Assembly: GCA_913041895.1 (NCBI GenBank)
Contig: CAJWKQ010000010.1
Location: 1 to 34,265, forward strand
From: an uncultured Verrucomicrobiales bacterium
GTDB taxonomy: Bacteria; Verrucomicrobiota; Verrucomicrobiia; Limisphaerales; UBA1100
DNA: 34,265 nucleotides
Direction: 5' to 3'
The stretch's first letter is position 1. Each line of letters starts with the position of its first letter. The notes under the pieces are model-generated. The model was not told the origin of the DNA. It was given only the letters and a program-made list of their open reading frames with translations, and ran no database searches. Of this stretch, positions 8,390 through 22,796 are shown piece after piece. Both the position numbers and the translations under genes were made by a program.

Positions 8390-9730
8390 ATGAGAATCTC
8401 ATTTCTGCTATTATTCGTATCAATTCAAATTCATTGTGCCGATTGGCCCCAATGGCTAGGCCCGAAGCGTGATGCGGTTTGGCGGGAGGAGGGTATCATT
8501 GATACATTTCCCGAAGGCGGCCCAAAACTAAGATGGAAGACCCCTTTGAGTAGTGGCTATTCCGGCCCCGCCGTAGCCAATGGCCGAGTCTTTGTCATGG
8601 ACCGGGTTGCTGATAAGATTGATACAACTAAAGCCAAGCTACTACACAAGGGGGCCCCTCCTCGAAACCCTAATTTTTTACGTAAACTTTTTCCTGGGAA
8701 AGAACGTGTTGTTTGCCTGGATGAGACTAATGGAAAAATCATTTGGTCTCATGAGTGGAATTGCCCCTATACCACTGTAGCCACCTACGCGATCGGGCCG
8801 CGCGCCACCCCAACTGTAGATGGCGATCATGTTTATGCCCTTGGAGCTGAAGGCAATCTATTCTGTCTTTCCACGAAAACAGGTTCTGTGATCTGGAATC
8901 GTGATTTCAAAAAAGATTATGGACTCAATATCCCTGAATGGGGGACTGCAGCTCATCCCCTCGTCGAAGAAGATTTGCTAATCTGCCTGGTCGGAGGGAA
9001 AGGCACCACATGTGTGGCATTCGACAAAAAAACCGGAATGGAGGTTTGGAGGGCTTTGTCCTCTAAGCAACCTGGCTACTGTCCCCCTGTGATCCATTTT
9101 CTTGGTGACAAAAGACAGTTGCTAATTTGGCACGGTGATGCTCTTGAGGCATTAAACCCTCAAACCGGAAAAGTATATTGGTCAGTTTCCGTAAAACCCA
9201 CTTACGGAATGGCTATTGGCCAGCCCATGGCTGAAGGCAACCGTGTATTTATCATGAGCTTCAATCGTATTTCAGCCTGCATAGAAGTGGCCGACAACGG
9301 CAATGAAGCAAAGATCGTATGGCGAGGAAACACTCGAAACGGTGTCGGCGGTGTCCATAACACAGCTTTTCTGGAAAATGGTCATCTATATGCGTGTGGA
9401 AATGGTGGTAATTATATTTGTGCCAATCTTGATAGCGGCAAAAGGTTATGGGATACCTTTAAACCTGCAGCGGGAGAGCGCCCAGCCAGTTGGGCCAATG
9501 TGTTTACAGTAAAACAAGGAAATCGATTTTTCCTCGTAAATGACTTTGGTGAACTCATCATCGCCCACTTGAGCCCCGCGGGATATCGCGAAATAAGCCG
9601 TTCCAAGCTTATTGAGCCCACTCACCGGGTTGGCCACAGGACCCTTGTCTGGTCTCATCCCGCATTTGCCAACCGCCGCGTTTACCTTCGTAATGATCTC
9701 GAAATTAGATGTTACGATTTAGCTAAGTAG
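8390..9730 (+). CDS. Secreted PQQ-like beta-propeller repeat protein
   Basis: Signal peptide then DWPQWLGPKRDAVW; repeated blades such as VCLDETNGKIIWSHEW, FCLSTKTGSVIWNRDF, EALNPQTGKVYWSVS. Confidence 0.88.
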   Translation: MRISFLLLFVSIQIHCADWPQWLGPKRDAVWREEGIIDTFPEGGPKLRWKTPLSSGYSGPAVANGRVFVMDRVADKIDTTKAKLLHKGAPPRNPNFLRKLFPGKERVVCLDETNGKIIWSHEWNCPYTTVATYAIGPRATPTVDGDHVYALGAEGNLFCLSTKTGSVIWNRDFKKDYGLNIPEWGTAAHPLVEEDLLICLVGGKGTTCVAFDKKTGMEVWRALSSKQPGYCPPVIHFLGDKRQLLIWHGDALEALNPQTGKVYWSVSVKPTYGMAIGQPMAEGNRVFIMSFNRISACIEVADNGNEAKIVWRGNTRNGVGGVHNTAFLENGHLYACGNGGNYICANLDSGKRLWDTFKPAAGERPASWANVFTVKQGNRFFLVNDFGELIIAHLSPAGYREISRSKLIEPTHRVGHRTLVWSHPAFANRRVYLRNDLEIRCYDLAK

Positions 9731-9775: not shown

Positions 9776-10219
9776 ATGAACCCTGAAGAAAGAGCAAAGG
9801 ATCTGGGCGTTGAATTTACTAACCAAGAGTCGGGATATTTAAATCTGTGTATTCGGAGCGGCAATCTGCTCATCACTTCGGGCCACACAAGCACTGCCAC
9901 AGGCGTACTTGGAGCTGGCGTATCCGTTGAAGAGGGCTATAAGGCAGCTGAAGATTGCGCAAAAAAGATTTTAAACTCTGTGTACAATACACACGGAACC
10001 ATTAACGGACTGAAAGTGGTTAAACTTCTGGGATGCGTTTATTCAGCACCGGATTTCACCGATCAGCATCTTGTCATTAATGGCGCATCTGACCTTTTAC
10101 ACAAGATTTACGGCAAAGAGGGGGATGGATATCATGCTCGAAGTGCTCTTGGATTTGCCGCCCTTCCCACCGGTGCAGCGGTTGAAGTGGAAGCCATTTT
10201 TGAAATTATTGAAAAATGA
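9776..10219 (+). CDS. RidA/YjgF/Rid-family protein
   Basis: LLITSGHTS...A.VSVEEGYKAAEDCAKKIL; HARSALGFAALPTGAAVEVEAIFEI is the conserved RidA C-terminal motif. Confidence 0.88.
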   Translation: MNPEERAKDLGVEFTNQESGYLNLCIRSGNLLITSGHTSTATGVLGAGVSVEEGYKAAEDCAKKILNSVYNTHGTINGLKVVKLLGCVYSAPDFTDQHLVINGASDLLHKIYGKEGDGYHARSALGFAALPTGAAVEVEAIFEIIEK

Positions 10220-11646
10220 ACCGTGCTCTAATTCTTTTCCTCGTTTGGTTAACCTCTGATTCACTCTGGGCCAAACAGCCAAATATCATTTTTGTACTGG
10301 CAGATGATCTTGGCTGGGCAGAACTGGGATGTTATGGAAACAAATTTAACGAGACACCTCATCTAGATGCACTTGCTAAACGTGGACTTCGTTTCACTAA
10401 TGCATATGCCTCAGCTCCCGTATGTTCCCCCTATCGTGCCGCGTTTTTGACCGGCCAATATCCTGCGCGGGTGGGGATTTTGGATTACTTAAGACCAGAT
10501 TCGGATAATGGACTTTCGACCAAGCACATTACGTTGCCTAAATTGCTAAAAAAAAATGGCTACACAACCGGAATGATCGGCAAATGGCATCTATCGGGAT
10601 ACAAATATCATGGAGCTAATAAAGTCGTCCGACCAACCGACCATGGTTTTGACTGGAACACAGGCAGTGAAATTAAAGGTGTGGGAAATGGGGCGAATTT
10701 TTTCCCATACGTTTTCCGTACTCAACCCATCAGCTGGATCGATTTGCCAAAGAATAAGCTAGGCAAGGATGAATACCTAACTGACCGGCTAAATCGTGAA
10801 GCCATAGATTTTATTGAAAGAAGCAAGACAAAGCCCTTCTTTCTCTATCTGGCCCATTACGCTCCTCACACTATTCTAAATGGCAGGTCCGATCTGGTAG
10901 AAAAATACCGCAAGAAACACCCTCCCGGTAAAAGCACTCGGGATCGGTGCTATTTATGCAAAGATTCAGGTCACGAAGGTGACGCCTTAAATCATTGGGC
11001 CGGCGATTATAACCCCCACTTAGGAGCAATGCTCGAAAGCATCGATGAAGGCATCGGGCTCATCGTAAAAAAACTCAAGGAACTCGATTTAGAAGAAAAC
11101 ACCATTTTAATATTTACCAGCGATAACGGAGGCGAATTGAATGTCACTTCAAATGCCCCTCTGCGCGGAGGCAAAAGCCAATTATATGAAGGCGGAATAC
11201 GAGTTCCACTTATTATCAGCTGGCCTAAAGAAATCCCTCAAAATAAGACATCAGAGCAACCAACTTCAAATGTCGATTTTTACCCAACTCTTTTGAAAGC
11301 CGCCGATATTACACCAGATAAATCTCAAGCCCTTGATGGCGTATCAATATTGCAAACCTTGTGCAACCCGGAGGTAGCGCCCACACGCAAAGCCCTACAC
11401 TGGCATTATCCATTGGAGAAACCGCATTTTCTTGGCGGAAGATCAAGCGGCGCCATTAGAGTCGGAGATTGGAAATTAATTGAAAATTTTAGCGAAAACT
11501 CCCCTGAACTATATCATTTAGCTAGTGATCCAAGCGAAAAAACCAACCTCGCCAGTCAACGTCCTGATAAACTCCGTGAACTTTTGACCCAATTGATTCA
11601 ATGGCGCAAATCAATCGGCGCTACTAAGGAACCTCCAAAAAGATAA
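10216..11646 (+). CDS. Sulfatase (arylsulfatase-like, type I)
   Basis: PNIIFVLADDLGWAELGCYGN; CSPYRAAFLTGQYPAR formylglycine motif; MIGKWHLSG; FTSDNGG; ATGA overlap with upstream ridA. Confidence 0.93.
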   Translation: MNRALILFLVWLTSDSLWAKQPNIIFVLADDLGWAELGCYGNKFNETPHLDALAKRGLRFTNAYASAPVCSPYRAAFLTGQYPARVGILDYLRPDSDNGLSTKHITLPKLLKKNGYTTGMIGKWHLSGYKYHGANKVVRPTDHGFDWNTGSEIKGVGNGANFFPYVFRTQPISWIDLPKNKLGKDEYLTDRLNREAIDFIERSKTKPFFLYLAHYAPHTILNGRSDLVEKYRKKHPPGKSTRDRCYLCKDSGHEGDALNHWAGDYNPHLGAMLESIDEGIGLIVKKLKELDLEENTILIFTSDNGGELNVTSNAPLRGGKSQLYEGGIRVPLIISWPKEIPQNKTSEQPTSNVDFYPTLLKAADITPDKSQALDGVSILQTLCNPEVAPTRKALHWHYPLEKPHFLGGRSSGAIRVGDWKLIENFSENSPELYHLASDPSEKTNLASQRPDKLRELLTQLIQWRKSIGATKEPPKR

Positions 11647-11786: not shown

Positions 11787-12722
11787 TTGAAAAATAATCT
11801 CAAATCTGCTTTCCGGACTTTTGATTCCGGGTATCGTGATGGATTGACTGAAGAAGCCTCTCATTCTCTTGATCTTGCCAGGTGCTTTTCACTAGTTTTC
11901 CTGCATGCAGGATGCCTAGGGATTATTTGGGTCGGGTGGAGCTGGCTGGCCATTATCGTTGCCCTCGCCCTGTATTTCACCCGCATGTTTGCTATCACCG
12001 CATTCCTCCACCGCTATTTTTCACATCGCACATTCAAAACCAATCGTTTTATCCAGTTCCTTTTTGCAGTCGCTGCATCAACAGCAGTTCAGAGGGGGGC
12101 ACTGTGGTGGGCTGCGCATCACCGTAAGCACCATCAAGAATCCGACAAGGAAAGAGATGTTCACTCGCCTCATACCCACAATTTCCTTTGGGCACACATT
12201 GGCTGGATTGCAAGCCCCAAGAATTTTGAAACTGACTATAATTCAATAAAAGACTTTGCCAAATACCCCGAGCTAGTTTTTCTCAATCGCTTCAACAAGT
12301 TAGTACCTGCAATAATGGCTATAGGACTTTATTTTCTCGGCGATTGGGCTGCTTCACAATGGGCATCATTGCAGACAAGTGGGTGGCAAATCTTGATTTG
12401 GGGATTCTTTGTAAGCACCACCCTTCTTTTCCACGGAACCTCAACCATCAATTCCTTAGCTCATATTTATGGAAAAAAGAGATTTGATACCGGCGACCAT
12501 AGCCGAAACAATTTTTGGCTGGCTCTAATTACCCTTGGAGAAGGATGGCACAATAATCATCATCACTACATGCATTCCGCCCGACAAGGTTTTTACTGGT
12601 GGGAAATCGATCTTACCTATTACGTGTTGAAAATTATGTCCTGGCTTGGATTGATCCATGATCTCAAACCAGTACCTGCCCGTGTGCTCGAAGAAGGGCG
12701 TAAAATCGATTCTGAGGATTGA
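11787..12722 (+). CDS. Acyl-CoA / fatty-acid desaturase (membrane di-iron)
   Basis: Three histidine boxes: HRYFSHR, HRKHH and GWHNNHHHY; hydrophobic segments. TTG start (no early ATG). Confidence 0.9.
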   Translation: MKNNLKSAFRTFDSGYRDGLTEEASHSLDLARCFSLVFLHAGCLGIIWVGWSWLAIIVALALYFTRMFAITAFLHRYFSHRTFKTNRFIQFLFAVAASTAVQRGALWWAAHHRKHHQESDKERDVHSPHTHNFLWAHIGWIASPKNFETDYNSIKDFAKYPELVFLNRFNKLVPAIMAIGLYFLGDWAASQWASLQTSGWQILIWGFFVSTTLLFHGTSTINSLAHIYGKKRFDTGDHSRNNFWLALITLGEGWHNNHHHYMHSARQGFYWWEIDLTYYVLKIMSWLGLIHDLKPVPARVLEEGRKIDSED

Positions 12723-13996
12723 AACCAAAACTCGCTATAATCGGCACGGGCATTTCGGGGCTAGGATGTGGACATTTCCTGCATAAGGATTTTGATATAA
12801 ATCTTTACGAACAGAACGAACACATAGGCGGCCACTCCCTCACGGTAGACGCAAAAGAAAATAATAAGCAGATCCCTATCGACATGGGGTTCATGGTCTT
12901 CAACAAAAAAACCTATCCTAACCTTACTCGTCTATTTGATGAGCTTGATGTTGGCTATAAAAACTCAAACATGTCTTTTAGCGTTCAACATACTGGGCAA
13001 AATATTGAATATTGCGGATCAAGCCTAAACCACCTCTTTGGGCAGAGAAAAAACATTTTCAACCTGCGCCACTGGAGAATGTTGATGCAAATTAACCGCT
13101 TTAATAATGAAGCCCGGGAAGCTTTGGAAGCAGGCCAGTTTGATACGCTTACGCTAGAAGAATACGTTAAAGTAAAAAATTATGGGGAGGATTTTTTTCA
13201 ACTCTATATTGTCCCCATGAGCTCTGCTATCTGGTCCACTCCGCCCAAGCTCATGCTCCAGTTTCCAGCCACTACTTTGCTGCGGTTTTTTAATAATCAC
13301 GGGTTCCTTGGCATGAACACTCAACACCAATGGCTTACCCCTAAGGGAGGCTCACGTGAGTATGTAAAAAAGCTCACAAAACCTTTTAGAGATAAAATCT
13401 CAACCAATAATAAAATTCTGAAGGTATCTAGGGCAGACAAGAGGGCAACTGTCCATACAGCTGATGGACAATCACACTCTTACGACAAGGTCATCCTTGC
13501 TGGTCACGCCGACCAATCACTCGCACTGTTAGACTCACCTAAACTGGAGGAAAAGCAGGAGTTAAGTAAGTTCAAATACCAAAAAAATATTGGTACTTTG
13601 CATACAGATCCAACCTCAATGCCTCAAAATAAACTATGCTGGGCTTCCTGGAACTATCGGATTAAAGAGAATACGCACGGCGAGCTCATTCCTAGAACAA
13701 TCTATTGGATGAACAATCTCCAAAATGTATCCAAAGAAACCAATTATTTTGTGAGCATTAACGGAGAAGATGAAATCAACCCCAAAAGAATCATTAAGCA
13801 GGTAGAGTTTGAGCACCCTCTCTTCGACTCTGCTGCTGTGCATGCTCAAAGTAAATTGCATTCGCTAAATCAACGCTCGCTGGATCAAACAGTTTATTTT
13901 TGCGGTAGTTATTTTAAATATGGTTTTCACGAGGATGCCTTAAATTCTGCTGTAGACCTTTGTTCAATCATATTAGGGAGGCCGCTATGGAGTTGA
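12719..13996 (+). CDS. FAD/NAD(P)-binding oxidoreductase, amine-oxidase-like (COG2907 type)
   Basis: KLAIIGTGISGLGCGHFLHKDFDINLYEQNEHIGGHSLTVD dinucleotide-binding motif; VYFCGSYFKYGFHEDALNSAV C-terminal FAD motif; TTG start overlapping the upstream stop. Confidence 0.9.
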   Translation: MKPKLAIIGTGISGLGCGHFLHKDFDINLYEQNEHIGGHSLTVDAKENNKQIPIDMGFMVFNKKTYPNLTRLFDELDVGYKNSNMSFSVQHTGQNIEYCGSSLNHLFGQRKNIFNLRHWRMLMQINRFNNEAREALEAGQFDTLTLEEYVKVKNYGEDFFQLYIVPMSSAIWSTPPKLMLQFPATTLLRFFNNHGFLGMNTQHQWLTPKGGSREYVKKLTKPFRDKISTNNKILKVSRADKRATVHTADGQSHSYDKVILAGHADQSLALLDSPKLEEKQELSKFKYQKNIGTLHTDPTSMPQNKLCWASWNYRIKENTHGELIPRTIYWMNNLQNVSKETNYFVSINGEDEINPKRIIKQVEFEHPLFDSAAVHAQSKLHSLNQRSLDQTVYFCGSYFKYGFHEDALNSAVDLCSIILGRPLWS

Positions 13997-14754
13997 AGTC
14001 ATGTATCTATGAATGCCGGATAATGCATCATCGCTTCAGCCCCAAGGAGCATCAGTTTCTTTACAGAATATTCATGTTTGGCATCTGTTTAGATGAAATC
14101 GATGAACTCTCCAGAAGATTTATTTTATTAAGCCATAACCGATTTAATCTTTTCTCATTTTATGATCAAGATCATTTGCAAAAGGACAACCGAAGTGCGA
14201 AAGAAAAGATAATAGCATATGCCCATGAAAATGGATCGAATGTCACCGATGATTGCCATGTACAACTAATTACCTTACCTCGCATTGCAGGCTATATATT
14301 TAATCCAGTTTCATTTTATTTCATTTTCAATGAAAAAAATGAACCAATTTGTGCTGTTGCAGAAGTGAGCAATACATATAGGGAAATGAAGCCTTACCTG
14401 TTAACTCAATACACCAATGATCGATTCAGACTTCGTGTGCCCAAATATTTTTATGTATCCCCTTTCTCAAGCCTGGAGCTGGAATTCGACTTTGATCTCA
14501 AGGTACCCAACAAAAAACTCGACATAAAAATAGATGAATTTGAGGCAGACCGAAAAATATTAGCCAGCTCTCTGAGCGGAAACGCCTTTCCTTTTACCGG
14601 AAAGAGACTCATCTGGTATGCAATAAAATACCCACTATTGACGCTTAAAGTCATTACCCTTATTCACTGGCATGCCCTGCGTTTAAAACTTAAAGGCCTA
14701 CATCATCATCCAAAAGATGAGAACCCTCATTTGCAAAAACCCATATTAAGGTAG
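13987..14754 (+). CDS. DUF1365 domain-containing protein
   Basis: IMHHRFSPKEHQFLYRIFMFGICLDEIDEL and LITLPRIAGYIFNPVSFYFIF are DUF1365 signatures. ATG at 13987 overlaps the previous gene's 3' end. Confidence 0.92.
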   Translation: MELKSCIYECRIMHHRFSPKEHQFLYRIFMFGICLDEIDELSRRFILLSHNRFNLFSFYDQDHLQKDNRSAKEKIIAYAHENGSNVTDDCHVQLITLPRIAGYIFNPVSFYFIFNEKNEPICAVAEVSNTYREMKPYLLTQYTNDRFRLRVPKYFYVSPFSSLELEFDFDLKVPNKKLDIKIDEFEADRKILASSLSGNAFPFTGKRLIWYAIKYPLLTLKVITLIHWHALRLKLKGLHHHPKDENPHLQKPILR

Positions 14755-14778
14755 TCGATAATCAAAAAACCCCATTGG

Positions 14779-16068
14779 ATGCAACGAAACACACAATATC
14801 AAAAAACAGCAGGCGACGAGACGGATGGTCGTTCGGCTACTTTTTGGCAAAAACAGTGTCGAAAGCTTATCCACCAAGCATTCTGTAAAATGAAACGAGG
14901 ACGTCTCATTATCAGGATGCCTGAGGGAGACTCGTGTAATTATGGTGAAGACGAAAACGCAGAACCAGCAATCATCCATATTCGCTCCCACAATTTTTTT
15001 GCAAAATGTGTGCAGTACGGTGACATCGGGCTTGGCGAATCTTACGTCGATGGTGACTGGGATACCGATGATATTTCTGCAGTCGTGGCATGGTTTATAT
15101 TAAATATCGATAATGCCCCCTCCATATCTGGCTCTAAGACAAAAACAGTAGCTATCAACTTCCTTAAAATCATCAACCGCATAGAGCATTTACTTCGGCC
15201 AAACAGCTTGAAGATGAGTAAGAACAATATTCACGAGCACTACGATCTGGGTAATGATTTCTATAAGTTGTTTCTGGACAAAACCATGACCTATTCCTGT
15301 GCTTATTATGAAAATTCGAATTATAGTTTATGTGAAGCGCAAACAGCCAAATATGATCGTTTATGCAGGAAGTTAAATATCAAGCAATCAGATCATGTAT
15401 TGGAAATTGGATGTGGCTGGGGGGGGTTTGCTGAATATGCCGCCGGAAAATATGGATGTCAGATTACGGGGATCACTATATCTGGAGAACAACTGAAATT
15501 TGCTAAAGCCCGGATAGAAAAAGCAAATCTATCTGAAAAGGTAAAACTCCTGTTTCAAGACTACCGACACATTAAAGGTCAATTTGATAAAATTGTTTCC
15601 ATTGAGATGCTCGAAGCAGTGGGGGATGCTTATTTGGAGGACTATTTCAAACAATGCAACCAACTACTCAAGCCTGAGGGTTTATTGGGAATTCAAATCA
15701 TCACCTGCCCCGACTCACGCTACAAACAACTTCGAAATGGAACCGACTGGACCCAAAAGCATATCTTTCCGGGCTCACTCCTGCTCGCCCAACATCGCGT
15801 TGCCGAAGCTATGGAAAAAGCTGGATCTCTTTTTCTCTATTCTTGGGATGAATTCAGCCAAAACTATGCCCGCACTCTTAAAGCATGGCATGAACGTTTT
15901 AATGAATCATTGGAAGAAGTACGCTCACAAGGTTTTGATGAGAAATTTATACGCAAATGGAATTACTATCTTTGTTACTGTCATGCGGGATTTACCATGC
16001 GCAATGTAGGCGTCGCTCAAGCCATTTATACTCGGCCAAATAATCTGAGCTTAAGGGAGTATTCATGA
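14779..16068 (+). CDS. Cyclopropane-fatty-acyl-phospholipid synthase-family SAM methyltransferase
   Basis: HEHYDLGNDFYKLFLDKTMTYSCAYY; VLEIGCGWGGFAEYAA SAM motif; QLKFAKARI; C-terminal NYYLCYCHAGFTMRNVGVAQAIYTRP. Confidence 0.92.
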   Translation: MQRNTQYQKTAGDETDGRSATFWQKQCRKLIHQAFCKMKRGRLIIRMPEGDSCNYGEDENAEPAIIHIRSHNFFAKCVQYGDIGLGESYVDGDWDTDDISAVVAWFILNIDNAPSISGSKTKTVAINFLKIINRIEHLLRPNSLKMSKNNIHEHYDLGNDFYKLFLDKTMTYSCAYYENSNYSLCEAQTAKYDRLCRKLNIKQSDHVLEIGCGWGGFAEYAAGKYGCQITGITISGEQLKFAKARIEKANLSEKVKLLFQDYRHIKGQFDKIVSIEMLEAVGDAYLEDYFKQCNQLLKPEGLLGIQIITCPDSRYKQLRNGTDWTQKHIFPGSLLLAQHRVAEAMEKAGSLFLYSWDEFSQNYARTLKAWHERFNESLEEVRSQGFDEKFIRKWNYYLCYCHAGFTMRNVGVAQAIYTRPNNLSLREYS

Positions 16069-16415
16069 CCAAAAAAGGACTACTTTTATTCTTCAGCCTG
16101 ATGCTTATTTCCATGCTAGTTGTTTGCCTTTGGGCTGGCAGCAGTAAAAATATGTTCATTTACTTTAACGAGCAACGTTCCAGCCCATGGTTTATAGCCA
16201 CACTTTTAGACTGCTATTGGGGGTTCCTCATCTTTTATGGGTGGCTACTATATCAAGAGAAATCCTGGACAAAACGAATCCCATGGCTGGCGGCTATTTG
16301 CTTTCTAGGCAATATCGCTGTTGCCATTTATGGTTTGATTAGAGCAGCACGCTTACCAGCCGATGCCACCTTTGAGGATTTTATCATTGAGAAAACTGAT
16401 CGTTACTCCTCGTGA
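16065..16415 (+). CDS. Small multi-TM membrane protein, DUF1475-like
   Basis: ATGA overlap with upstream Cfa; three hydrophobic segments; LISMLVVCLWAGSSKN and WFIATLLDCYWGFLIFYGWLLYQEKSW resemble DUF1475. Confidence 0.65.
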   Translation: MTKKGLLLFFSLMLISMLVVCLWAGSSKNMFIYFNEQRSSPWFIATLLDCYWGFLIFYGWLLYQEKSWTKRIPWLAAICFLGNIAVAIYGLIRAARLPADATFEDFIIEKTDRYSS

Positions 16416-16421
16416 TCCAAA

Positions 16422-17213
16422 ATGCATCCAATTCTTCAACAACTACTCTTAGCTTGGATCGGCATTTTCACTGCAATCAATCTCACTTTTGGATTAAGCG
16501 AAAAGTTGCGCAACGCTGGAATTATTGATGTATTGTGGGGGTTTAGTTTTGCAATCCTTGCCTTGTATTTTGCCTTTTCGGGTGATGGCAATGAAACCCG
16601 CCGAATTATACTAGCAACCGCCACCTGTATTTGGTCAGGACGACTAGGATTCTATTTGCTATTACGCTTCAAACAGCATTACCCACAGGAAGACAAGAGA
16701 TATACTGAACTTCGTGATAAATGGGGTAAAACGGCCACCCCGAAAATGTTTGGCATTTTCCACTGGCAAGGTCTGCTAATAATGATCTTCAGTGTGGTAT
16801 TCGCAGTACCCACATGGAATGAATCGACCGTCATCAGCCCCCTTGAATGGGTAGGTTTAGCGATCATTGCAGTTGCAATAATCGGCGAAAGTATAGCTGA
16901 TTGGCAATTAGCCAGATTTAAATCACAAAATTCAGGCAATAAAGTTTGCCGATCGGGGTTATGGAATTACAGCAGACATCCCAATTACTTCTTTCAGTGG
17001 CTGGCATGGGTCGGCTTTTTCCTCCTTGCCGGAGCCTCTGGAGGGTGGTGGACTATTTTCTGCCCATTATTAATGCTGTTCCTACTACTGAAAGTCTTCG
17101 GGGTTCCCGCCAATGAAAAACAAAACCTAATCTCTAAAGGTTCAGCCTACAAAGCCTATCAACAAACCACTTCTTGTTTCATCCCGTGGCCTCCAAGGGA
17201 AACTCCGTCATGA
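16422..17213 (+). CDS. DUF1295 / steroid 5-alpha-reductase-like membrane protein
   Basis: Multi-[42 protein letters not shown] is the DUF1295/ICMT-type C-terminal signature. Confidence 0.9.
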
Positions 17214-18232
17214 TAAATACCTTGCTTGAAAACGATTGGATACCGGATTTTTTGATTCGCCATCAAATCAGAAAACTGAATCAGCAACGACTACGATCTG
17301 AAGCAAACCGACTTCAATCTGGGGCAAAAAACAAACTTATAGGTGAGTTAAAAACAATGCCTGTTGCAATAGAAACTCAAGCAGCAAATGATCAACATTA
17401 TGAAGTGCCGCCCGAATTTTTCATCAAATGCCTGGGCAAACATCTGAAGTACAGTTGCTGTTATTGGCCTGAAGGAACAAGTAATCTAGATGAAGCCGAA
17501 GCACGAATGCTGGAACTGACCTGCGAACGTGCCGGTCTTAGCGATGGCCAAACAATACTAGAACTAGGGTGTGGTTGGGGAGCAATCAGTCTCTGGATGG
17601 CTGAACATTACCCTCAAGCAAAGATTCTCTCAGTCTCAAACTCAACTGATCAGAGGAAATATATTCAAAATCAGGCCTCCGAAAGAGGCTTGAAAAATCT
17701 AGAAGTGCAAACATGTGACATGAATCAATTTAATACTGACCGAACCTTTGATCGAGTTGTGTCAGTGGAAATGTTCGAGCACATGAAAAACTACGAGAAA
17801 CTGATGGAACGAATCGGTCAATGGCTAAAACCTGACGGACGCCTCTTTGTACACATATTTTCCCACAAAAAATATGCCTACCATTTTGAGACTGAGGGTG
17901 AATCAAACTGGATGGGTAAACACTTTTTTACCGGAGGCATCATGCCTAGCGACGATCTTCTGGGTTATTTCAACCGTGATTTGAAAATCGACCAACAATG
18001 GCAGGTCAATGGGCTCCATTATCATAAAACAGCCGAAGCTTGGCTTGAAAATATGCATACTCACCAAGGAGAAATACGTAGGATTTTTGCCGATACTTAT
18101 GGGGCTGACCAAACGACAAAATGGTGGGTTTATTGGCGGATTTTCTTTATGGCCTGCTCCGAACTATGGTTAACTAACCGGGGAAAAGATTGGATCGTAA
18201 GTCATTATCTGTTTAGAAAGGCAAGCCCTTGA
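17210..18232 (+). CDS. SAM-dependent methyltransferase, Cfa superfamily, coclaurine-N-methyltransferase-like
   Basis: [110 protein letters not shown] overlap with DUF1295 stop. Confidence 0.9.
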
Positions 18233-19617
18233 ATAAATCCAAAAAGATCTTATTTGCGCTTCTGTTATCCTTTTGTATTGCAGGCTGGATGGCCTGTAAC
18301 AATCTGGAATGGAGGGGAGGAGGTATCCCAAAAATCGTTTGGAATAAGTCACAACCGGACATCAACAAACTTAAGAAACAAAGATCAAATCCTATACCGA
18401 CCGTACCTGCTCTGGATGATAATTCGTCTTCAAATAAAAATAATAATTCAAGCACTGCCTGGAGTGCTTTTCGAGGAATTGATGGGTCCGGAATATATAC
18501 TGAAGAAAGCATCCTCACCGAATGGCCAAATGAAGGACCGCCATTGCTATGGAAAAAATTAATCGGGGGAGGCCATGCCTCCTTCACTGTTGCAGGGCAA
18601 CTTGCCTTCACCATTGAGCAACAGGAAGAAAATGAAGTTGTCATCGCCGTCTCTATAAACGATGGATCGGTAAAATGGTCCTACGAATATCCGGCCAAGT
18701 TTGAGGAATATTTTGGAGGAATTGGACCTAGAACCAATCCCTTATGGAGTGAAGGGCTTCTTTATACCATGGGTGCAGTGGGGCATCTACACTGTTTCGA
18801 ATCAAATTCCGGAAAACTGCTTTGGAAAAAAAATACAACAGAAGAAAATGGTGTTCAGCCTCCTTATTGGGGCGTCTCAACTTCTCCTGTAATCCATAAA
18901 GACATGCTCTTCATTACCCCGGGAGGAGATCAGGATAATGCCATAATTGCTCTGGACAAAAAAACGGGTGAAAAGAAATGGAGTACACTTAGTGGGGACC
19001 AAACCTATAGTACCCCAGCTCTGCTTAAAATAAATAATCAACTGCAACTGGTTGTGGCCCTAAAAGGTAAATTTGTTGGGCTAAATCCAGATACTGGCAA
19101 GATTCTTTGGACACATCCCTGGAGAATTTTTATGAACAATTATAACATTGCCCAACCCACCCGATTAGCCGACGACACTTTGCTAATCTCTGCAGGTTAT
19201 GGAACTGGGGCAGAGTCATTTAAACTAATTAAAAATGATAATGAGTTAAAAACTGAATCACTCTGGAAAAGTAAATCACTGAAAACCAAATTTTCTAGTC
19301 CCATTCTGTGGAAGGGCCACTTATATGGCCTGAATGAAAATCGTCTATCATGCCTTGACGCTGAAGACGGATCACTAAAATGGCGGGGGAACAAATATGG
19401 GTATGGACAAATCATTGCAGCATCTGGGCATCTCATCATATTAGGAGATGCCGGCGATCTGTCTTTAGTTGAAATGAATCCACAAAAATTTATTGAAAAA
19501 GCAACTTTCAAAGCCCTGGATGGAGGGAGAACATGGAGTTATCCGGCCCTATCCAAGGGTCTTCTATTCATTAAGAACAGCCGCGAAATGGCATGCTACG
19601 ATTTACGGATTAAGTAA
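18229..19617 (+). CDS. PQQ-like beta-propeller lipoprotein
   Basis: TTG start overlapping previous stop (TTGA); signal peptide with AGWMAC lipobox-like Cys; blades [46 protein letters not shown]. Confidence 0.85.
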
Positions 19618-19986: not shown

Positions 19987-21279
19987 ATGATAACGAAAAA
20001 ATCCGCTATTGTAACCCTAGTATTCATTGTGTCTTCTCTTTACGCGGAGGACTGGACCCAATGGCGTGGCCCAAACCGCGATGGAATTGTTGAGGGCAAG
20101 GAGTGGCCAACCGCCTTGGGCCAATCAAACCTAAAACAAAAATGGCGAGTTAAATTAGGCTCAAGCTATTCTGGTGCACTCTTGGACAAGAACACAGTGT
20201 ATGTAACTGAATCAGTGGGACCGAAGAAAGGTGTATATGAATTCGACAAGGTACAAGCGCTAGACAGAGCAACTGGCAAGGTAAAATGGACACAACAGTG
20301 GCCTGGAACCGGAAAATGGAACGTTACGTGGCCTGGCAGGGTAAATGGAGCCTGGATTCGAAGTACTCCTGCACTAGCCAACGGTAAATTGTTCGTGGCA
20401 GGCATGCATGATCGCCTCCTTTGCCTGGAAGCCAACACAGGAAAGAAACTCTGGGAAATTGATTTTCCAAAACAGTTTAAAACCCCGGTCCCAGGCTTTG
20501 GCTGTGTTTGTTCTCCGATGGTAGATGACAAATTTGTTTATATGCAGGCTGGAGCAAGTTTTTGTAAGATTGAACAGGATACTGGAAAAATCGTCTGGCA
20601 GACAATGAAAGATGAAGGCGGCTTAAGAGGTGGTGGTTTTTCCTCCCCCGTTATTGCAACTTTAAACGGCAAACGACAAATTTTACTTCAGGCCAGAACT
20701 GAATTGACCGGTATAGATATTAACTCAGGAGCCGTGTTATGGAAAAAAGAAGTAAAATCATTTAGAGGCATGAATATCCTCACCCCTCTACCTTATGAGG
20801 ATGGAGTTTATACCAGCACTTATCGTTACGGATCTTTTTTTTATAACATTAAAAAAGACAAAGAATCCTGGACTGCAGATGAAAAATGGAAGAATGGTTC
20901 CAAGACTTCAGCTTATATGGCCAGTCCGGTGCTCTTTGAAGGACATGCTTATTTACTCATCCAGGATGGAAACTTTGCTTGCTATGACCTAAAAACCGGA
21001 AAGGAATGTTGGAGGAGCGAAAAACGTTTTGGCTCTGGGCGACATGGCATGTACATGAGTCTAATAAGACAAGGCGACCGAATTCTTGGTCTTGATCAGG
21101 GAGGCAATCTACATCTGATCAAGGCCAACCCAAAAGAGTTTCAACTAATCGACTCAAGAAAAGTCTCTGAGGAACCCACTTGGGCACACTTGGCAATAAG
21201 TGGAGATCAAGTGGCAGTGCGCGAACTTAATGGAATTTCCCTTTACGATTGGAAATCTAAAACCATTCCAATTCCCTAG
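19987..21279 (+). CDS. Secreted PQQ-like beta-propeller repeat protein
   Basis: Signal peptide; DWTQWRGPNRDGI; QALDRATGKVKWTQQW, LCLEANTGKKLWEIDF, TGIDINSGAVLWKKEV blades. Confidence 0.88.
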   Translation: MITKKSAIVTLVFIVSSLYAEDWTQWRGPNRDGIVEGKEWPTALGQSNLKQKWRVKLGSSYSGALLDKNTVYVTESVGPKKGVYEFDKVQALDRATGKVKWTQQWPGTGKWNVTWPGRVNGAWIRSTPALANGKLFVAGMHDRLLCLEANTGKKLWEIDFPKQFKTPVPGFGCVCSPMVDDKFVYMQAGASFCKIEQDTGKIVWQTMKDEGGLRGGGFSSPVIATLNGKRQILLQARTELTGIDINSGAVLWKKEVKSFRGMNILTPLPYEDGVYTSTYRYGSFFYNIKKDKESWTADEKWKNGSKTSAYMASPVLFEGHAYLLIQDGNFACYDLKTGKECWRSEKRFGSGRHGMYMSLIRQGDRILGLDQGGNLHLIKANPKEFQLIDSRKVSEEPTWAHLAISGDQVAVRELNGISLYDWKSKTIPIP

Positions 21280-21341: not shown

Positions 21342-22796
21342 ATGAATGTAATTCGCTTACTTTTCCTGTTTGCCTGCCTTTACCCTGCTCTGAGTAAAGC
21401 AGATCAAAAAACTAAACCTCTGAACTTTGTTTTTTTTCTGGTCGATGATCTAGGATGGACTGACCTAAAAACATTCGGCAGCTCTTTTTATGATACCCCC
21501 AACTGCGATCGGCTGGCGGCCACGGGCATGAAATTTACTAATGCCTACGCCGCTTGCCCTGTTTGCAGCCCCACACGAGCCAGTATCATGACCGGCCGTT
21601 ACCCTACACGCACAGGTGTGACAGACTACATTGGAGCCCCTGCTGGAAAGGCTTGGCGGCGCAATACTCGCCTACTTCCAGCGACATACACCCGGCAACT
21701 TGAATTAAAGGAATTCACTATTGCTGAAGCCCTTAAGGAAAATGGCTATGCCACCTTCTTCGCTGGCAAATGGCACCTCGGCAACGAGGGTTTCTGGCCT
21801 GAAGATCAGGGTTTCGATGTAAATAAGGGAGGACATCACAGGGGTGGTCCTTATGGAGGAAAAAAGTATTTTTCTCCGTATGGTAACCCACGACTTACTG
21901 ATGGCCCAAATGGAGAACACCTACCCGATCGACTAGCCACTGAAACCGTAAAATTCATGGCAGCCAACAAGAGCAATCCCTTCCTCGCCTACCTGTCATT
22001 CTACTCGGTGCACACGCCACTGATTTCACGCACGGACCTGCGCGACAAATATCTTGCGCGTAAAAAGGAACGCGGGCTTGAGGCGCAGTGGGGAAAGGAA
22101 CACAACCGAAAGGTGAGACTCGTCCAGGAACATGCAGTCTATGGTGGCATGGTTGAAGCCATGGACCTGGCAGTAGGTAAGGTGCTAGATGGCCTTAAGA
22201 AGCACAGCTTGGAAGATAACACCGCCGTGTTTTTCATGAGTGATAATGGAGGACTATCCACCAGTGAAGGACATCCTACCAGCAACCTTCCTCTACGTGG
22301 AGGCAAAGGCTGGATGTATGAGGGCGGCATTCGCGAACCAATGATGGTTCGCTGGCCGGGCGTTACTAAGCCCGGCAGCGTGAGCGATTCCCCCATCACG
22401 AGCACTGACTTTTTTCCCACCATGATGGAAATGGCCGGGATCAAACCAGAAGTGCCACTACCTATTGATGGCGTGAGTTTCACCGCTGCACTACGTGGCA
22501 AAAAATACGACCGCGGCGCCATCTATTGGCACTATCCGCACTATGGCAATCAGGGCAATGCACCTACCGCTGCTGTGCGCGAAGGCGACTGGAAACTTAT
22601 TGAATGGTATGAGGACAACCGGAAAGAACTATTCAACCTCAGAGAGGACATCGGTGAGAAAAATAATCTGGCAAAAAAACATCCGGACAAGGTCAACATT
22701 CTTGCTGCCAAGCTTGCTGCCTGGCGCAAGCAAACTGGCGCGCGCATGCCAACGCCAAACAACAAATTTGATCCCAATAAACGTGAGGGCCGATAA
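21342..22796 (+). CDS. Sulfatase (arylsulfatase A-like, type I)
   Basis: NFVFFLVDDLGWTDLKTFGSSFYDTPNCDRL; CSPTRASIMTGRYPTR; FAGKWHLG; FFMSDNGG. Confidence 0.95.
   Translation: MNVIRLLFLFACLYPALSKADQKTKPLNFVFFLVDDLGWTDLKTFGSSFYDTPNCDRLAATGMKFTNAYAACPVCSPTRASIMTGRYPTRTGVTDYIGAPAGKAWRRNTRLLPATYTRQLELKEFTIAEALKENGYATFFAGKWHLGNEGFWPEDQGFDVNKGGHHRGGPYGGKKYFSPYGNPRLTDGPNGEHLPDRLATETVKFMAANKSNPFLAYLSFYSVHTPLISRTDLRDKYLARKKERGLEAQWGKEHNRKVRLVQEHAVYGGMVEAMDLAVGKVLDGLKKHSLEDNTAVFFMSDNGGLSTSEGHPTSNLPLRGGKGWMYEGGIREPMMVRWPGVTKPGSVSDSPITSTDFFPTMMEMAGIKPEVPLPIDGVSFTAALRGKKYDRGAIYWHYPHYGNQGNAPTAAVREGDWKLIEWYEDNRKELFNLREDIGEKNNLAKKHPDKVNILAAKLAAWRKQTGARMPTPNNKFDPNKREGR

Follow-up and report, generated by a model that had tools for sequence, protein, structure and literature searches.

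The window analysed here, the whole 34,265-bp stretch, is an entire contig (CAJWKQ010000010.1) of the metagenome-assembled genome (MAG) of an uncultured Verrucomicrobiales bacterium (GCA_913041895.1; 81.5% complete). It carries seven same-strand (+) open reading frames (ORFs) at positions 11787-18232, and Pfam profile matches to their translations confirmed all of the families that the original prediction had named (Table 1). Intergenic spacings from gene 1 to gene 7 are -4, -10, +24, -4, +6 and -4 bp, confirming the predicted run of seven genes in one direction with overlaps or very short gaps. Judged from family membership, gene order and co-occurrence, the operon very probably encodes a self-contained pathway for furan fatty acids (FuFA) carrying one or two methyl groups, built on phospholipid acyl chains.

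Table 1. Genes of the predicted furan fatty acid operon and the gene that follows it. SAM, S-adenosylmethionine; FAD, flavin adenine dinucleotide; PQQ, pyrroloquinoline quinone.
Gene	Assignment	Position	Strand	Profile match or remark
1	Acyl desaturase, membrane di-iron, FA_desaturase family	11787..12722	+	PF00487, 67.9 bits
2	UfaD-like FAD-dependent fatty acyl desaturase	12719..13996	+	Amino_oxidase PF01593, 70.9 bits; also PF13450
3	UfaO-like DUF1365 protein, predicted O2-dependent furan-forming oxygenase	13987..14754	+	PF07103, 239 bits
4	UfaM-like SAM-dependent fatty acyl C-methyltransferase, Cfa superfamily	14779..16068	+	CMAS PF02353, 289 bits
5	DUF1475 small membrane protein, putative accessory	16065..16415	+	PF07343, 27.4 bits (cut-off 22.3, barely exceeded)
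6	DUF1295 membrane protein, sterol-reductase/ICMT-like fold	16422..17213	+	PF06966, 206 bits; Steroid_dh, 30.7 bits
7 (MT2)	FufM-like SAM methyltransferase, coclaurine-NMT clade	17210..18232	+	CMAS PF02353, 155 bits
8	PQQ-type beta-propeller protein	18229..19617	+	4-bp overlap with gene 7

According to the study of Rhodobacter sphaeroides and Rhodopseudomonas palustris (PMC7380195), UfaM methylates cis-vaccenate, UfaD forms the methylated conjugated diene, the DUF1365 protein UfaO introduces oxygen derived from O2, and a second methylation by FufM converts the mono- to the dimethyl-furan. The same study describes the steps from UfaM to FufM as experimentally shown in alphaproteobacteria, and ufaM, ufaD and ufaO alone as sufficient for 9M5-FuFA in R. 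sphaeroides in vivo. R. palustris RPA2571-2570-2569 are ufaD-ufaO-ufaM, and genes 2 to 4 of the window share the same families in the same order. Gene 2 combines PF01593 and PF13450 matches with a 10-bp overlap with the DUF1365 gene and a matching genome-wide profile, and gene 3 belongs to the DUF1365 family above the cut-off. The window differs from the Rhodobacter/Rhodopseudomonas ufa sets in adding a dedicated desaturase, DUF1475, DUF1295 and a second methyltransferase in one run. A structure model of the UfaO-like protein (predicted local distance difference test score, pLDDT, 95) is mainly beta, with weak calycin/lipocalin-like matches. It weakly resembles nitrobindin, the OssO/OlmO spirocyclases and the FABP-like Ycf58, matches that point to no cofactor and that may help in finding the one used by UfaO.

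The assignment of gene 4 hinges on its active site. In the alignment, gene 4 carries Ala in place of His240 and Gln in place of His266 (E. coli Cfa numbering), as do all 96 cluster homologs, while Glu239, Ile268 and Tyr317 are retained in all of them. His266 is kept by the solved cyclopropane synthases in the PDB (E. coli, two other bacterial and mycobacterial). Among control Cfas of the class, the eight without ufa neighbours have His240 in every case and His266 in seven (L216 has Gln266); the remaining 21 have Ala/Gln, and 19 of these have ufa-type neighbours in their short flanks. This signature was read from cluster homologs and class Cfas, with R. sphaeroides UfaM outside the comparison. 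Gene 4 was also considered as a cyclopropane synthase and rejected for want of His240 and His266; the genome has no further CMAS protein above the cut-off. The protein is predicted to be a UfaM-like methylase, with cyclopropane synthesis disfavoured, and the UfaD-UfaO-UfaM set together with the missing histidines points to furan fatty acids as the product. Ala240/Gln266 may also serve in annotation as sequence marks that separate UfaM-type enzymes from cyclopropane synthases.

Gene 7 (MT2) belongs elsewhere in the superfamily. Its best PDB match is coclaurine N-methyltransferase (CNMT; E=1.4e-74, against ~2e-31 for Cfa), and it groups with plant CNMT and pavine N-methyltransferase (NMT), apart from Cfa and UfaM, with a support of 100/100. 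MT2-type and UfaM-type proteins are ~25% identical, and FufM (RPA0924) is given as 26% identical to UfaM in PMC7380195. FufM shares 37.9% identity with the plant protein LIME1, which sits on lipid droplets alongside UFAO1 and UFAMD1 (PMC10940516), and this indirect tie places FufM in the CNMT-like clade. Like FufM, a 9M5-FuFA methylase, gene 7 falls in the CNMT-like part of the Cfa superfamily and is distant from UfaM, a likeness by clade rather than by direct alignment; fufM is unlinked to the ufa genes in R. palustris, whereas gene 7 is directly linked to them. We predict that gene 7 adds a second ring methyl group. In plants, the same four activities are ascribed to UFAMD1, UFAO1 and LIME1/FUFM1, predicted from homology there too, with UfaM and UfaD similarity within one protein, whereas the window has separate genes (PMC10940516).

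The double bond is predicted to come from gene 1, which would supply a cis monounsaturated acyl chain. Its translation contains the histidine boxes HRYFSH, HHRKHH and HNNHHH, and the gene stands first in the block within the genus, as it does in the majority of class members carrying it. The genome encodes two desaturases and gave only a below-cut-off match to fabA, a weak negative since the MAG is incomplete. If gene 1 works at delta-9, the position of the ring would differ from that in 9M5-FuFA.

All seven genes, with their order kept, are present in five of the six same-genus contigs compared with the window (the DUF1295 match of one, L015, is split in two pieces), and the sixth (L017) ends at the contig edge after DUF1365. 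In the same-genus genome G007 the block lies on a contig of 57,713 bp. Genes upstream of the block vary in more distant genus members, indicating that the block is a unit. A contig from another family of the same order (G025) keeps the order DUF1365, Cfa, DUF1475, DUF1295, MT2, interrupted by a PQQ gene; the FAD and desaturase genes are absent there, and a UfaD homolog lies on another contig. Because one same-genus genome (G003, 95% complete) is without DUF1365, MT2, DUF1295 and UfaD, and sampled sister genera of the family gave no DUF1365 match, the distribution of the operon appears patchy, through loss or transfer.

Across 335 genomes of the class, MT2 was found in 98, DUF1365 in 102, a UfaD homolog in 101 and full-length DUF1295, counted as matches far above the weak tail, in 102. 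MT2 shares 97 genomes with DUF1365 and 98 with DUF1295, and DUF1365 and DUF1295 share 100 (Fisher p ~1e-77 to 1e-80, uncorrected for phylogeny and so for the non-independence of the genomes). UfaD occupies nearly the same genome set as DUF1365. Physical linkage alone cannot account for this co-occurrence, since several genomes have the genes on separate contigs and three with DUF1365 and DUF1295 lack MT2. Where MT2 has enough flank (48 class loci), FAD lies within 10 kb in 36, DUF1365 in 36, Cfa in 39, DUF1295 in 40 and DUF1475 in 23, and all seven families do so in 10. The seven-gene grouping is far beyond chance. A second UfaD/DUF1365 pair, 40% and 31% identical to that of the window, was seen on contig C93 of G000 (L002:227-2262); its DUF1365 homology ends after ~130 residues, the frame continuing with unrelated sequence, and C93 may be a chimeric contig or foreign to the MAG.

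The gene set is not unique to this contig, as the neighbourhood search suggested with the original prediction made clear; its order is kept within the genus and across the class, and it recurs in several phyla, including Bacteroidota and Pseudomonadota, partly rearranged, with at least 80 named loci in a scan of contigs. The order is desaturase-DUF1475-DUF1295-MT2-FAD-DUF1365-Cfa in Bacteroidota and desaturase-FAD-DUF1365-Cfa-DUF2878-DUF1295-MT2 in Gammaproteobacteria, and on a plasmid of Acinetobacter sp. WY4 six of the seven follow one another as in the window (desaturase-FAD-DUF1365-Cfa-DUF1295-MT). Plasmids of Rhizobium tropici, Shinella and Burkholderia have DUF1295-MT pairs near ufa genes and sigma/anti-sigma genes, and ufa genes adjoin sigma/ChrR genes on Rhizobium, Shinella and Phyllobacterium plasmids. 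DUF1475 had no match in the plasmid search. Throughout the class this family occupies one and the same slot, and in Bacteroidota it lies upstream of DUF1295; the slot is held by DUF2878 in Gammaproteobacteria and by a DUF2062 protein in Akkermansiaceae-like loci. Homology between DUF1475 and DUF2878 was considered and is unsupported (hhalign probability 1.4%).

DUF1295 is as closely associated with the pathway as the core genes are (100 of the 102 DUF1365-positive genomes), even where unlinked or where MT2 is missing, and this co-occurrence firmly ties a widespread family to the furan fatty acid pathway, which is new here. Its AlphaFold model (pLDDT 95.7) matched 4quv (prob 1.00), 7bw1 (prob 0.95) and 5vg9 in Foldseek, all with E-values >0.001; the matched folds are those of delta(14)-sterol reductase, steroid 5-alpha-reductase 2 and ICMT. 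The model resembles the steroid 5-alpha and delta(14)-sterol reductases in overall fold (query-length TM-score 0.48-0.49), but identity to them is only 10-16% and ICMT, a methyltransferase of related fold, matches too. With such weak E-values and ICMT also matching, we infer rather than observe a C=C reductase, and a plausible role for DUF1295 is that of an NAD(P)H-dependent enzyme of this kind in or around the pathway. A more specific and unlikely proposal is that of an NADPH-dependent enone/ene-dione reductase, which would reduce the ene-dione left after a FuFA quenches singlet oxygen to a 1,4-diketone; detoxification of this product, or its closure back to the furan ring, would then regenerate the antioxidant where it would otherwise be spent. 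In Chlamydomonas, CFA1, CFA2, DUF1365, DUF1295 and DUF2177 are co-induced under singlet oxygen (PMC4067076). That co-induction table and an unrelated plant microRNA paper were all that a literature search for DUF1295 with DUF1365 or cyclopropane returned, and a search combining furan fatty acid and steroid 5-alpha reductase gave no hits. A mutant of RPA0923, which adjoins fufM, has been built, with no outcome for it found in the available parts of PMC7380195. Placing DUF1295 in a pathway makes its function directly testable.

Taken together, the desaturase would make a cis double bond, the UfaM-like enzyme would methylate it and shift the double bond to give a methyl trans-monoene, and the UfaD-like enzyme would take away two hydrogens to form a methylated conjugated diene. 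The UfaO-like protein would then insert oxygen from O2 and close the furan ring, to which the FufM-like enzyme would add the second methyl group, yielding a dimethyl-FuFA. The steps after the first are assigned from homology to the alphaproteobacterial enzymes, from gene order and from co-occurrence. DUF1295, as a membrane protein of reductase-like fold, would be needed somewhere in or around the pathway, and DUF1475 may be a membrane accessory. Within the membrane, the product would likely act as a scavenger of radicals or singlet oxygen. The families support the original view that the operon modifies fatty acids by way of a double bond, methylation by a Cfa-like enzyme and an FAD step, and that its second methyltransferase is of a different kind. 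That view left the product open as methyl-branched, furan or cyclopropane, a choice that the Ufa set and the missing Cfa histidines narrow to furan. It had the FAD enzyme or DUF1295 oxidising or reducing the product; by homology the former would be a second desaturase, and a reductase remains plausible by fold for the latter. The additional methylated product expected of the second methyltransferase stands, refined to a FufM-like step on the finished furan.

Pairs of a Cfa-like and an FAD enzyme produce 10-methyl fatty acids in actinobacteria, which, with the sterol-reductase-like fold of DUF1295, would suit methyl-branched, non-furan fatty acids made as 10-methylstearate is, by Cfa-like methylation followed by a reduction that the FAD enzyme or DUF1295 would carry out. 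Such a route, however, has no need of an oxygenase or a FufM-like enzyme. Since the operon does contain DUF1365, the family of the furan-forming UfaO, which is inherited together with UfaD in ~100 of the 335 genomes, this product is improbable. Cyclopropane fatty acids from two cyclopropane synthases would account for the PF02353 match of both methyltransferases, but are barely credible given Ala and Gln at His240 and His266 of gene 4 and its 96 homologs, the retention of His266 by cyclopropane synthases in the PDB and the position of gene 7 outside the Cfa clade. Gene 7 could instead be a CNMT-like methylase of an amine or other group and not a FufM, leaving a monomethyl-FuFA beside an unrelated modification; among solved structures it is closest to plant alkaloid N-methyltransferases, and the comparison with FufM is indirect. 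We consider this unlikely, as 97 of the 98 class genomes carrying gene 7 have DUF1365, gene 7 is usually linked to ufa genes, and FufM shows its 37.9% identity to LIME1, a protein found on lipid droplets with UFAO1 and UFAMD1 (PMC10940516).

Several points weigh against the furan pathway itself. In this lineage the furan product is predicted from gene content, the genome is an incomplete MAG, and the proposed orthology to RSP1090, RSP1091, RSP2144 and RPA0924 draws on published identities together with family assignments, the tree and synteny. There is no obvious requirement for DUF1295 and DUF1475, since R. sphaeroides makes 9M5-FuFA with three genes and both are probably dispensable for synthesis itself. 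In a further difference from the Rhodobacter/Rhodopseudomonas ufa sets, no sigma-E/ChrR genes were noticed near the operon; no sigma or ChrR gene was found among the Pfam-scanned ORFs of the window, where no systematic search for a sigma-E/ChrR pair was made.

The PQQ gene, coupled translationally with gene 7 within the genus, comes next wherever a same-genus contig extends far enough and is not the rule outside the genus; it is probably not part of the pathway. PQQ beta-propeller ORFs (8390-9730, 18229-19617 and 19987-21279) and sulfatase-like ORFs (10216-11646 and 21342-22796) flank the operon, apparently as a set that has expanded in this lineage. Some class relatives (L111, L119, L126) have a sigma-factor-like gene upstream of the cluster, oriented away from it. 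The same-genus contig PBEJ01000007.1 carries a photolyase gene ~7 kb downstream of the operon (L118:18226-19806); the window has no photolyase.

Furan fatty acids are known from few bacteria. The operon described here predicts them in many Verrucomicrobiota, Bacteroidota and other phyla, and the predicted producers include the named strains Mucilaginibacter frigoritolerans and Pedobacter zeae.

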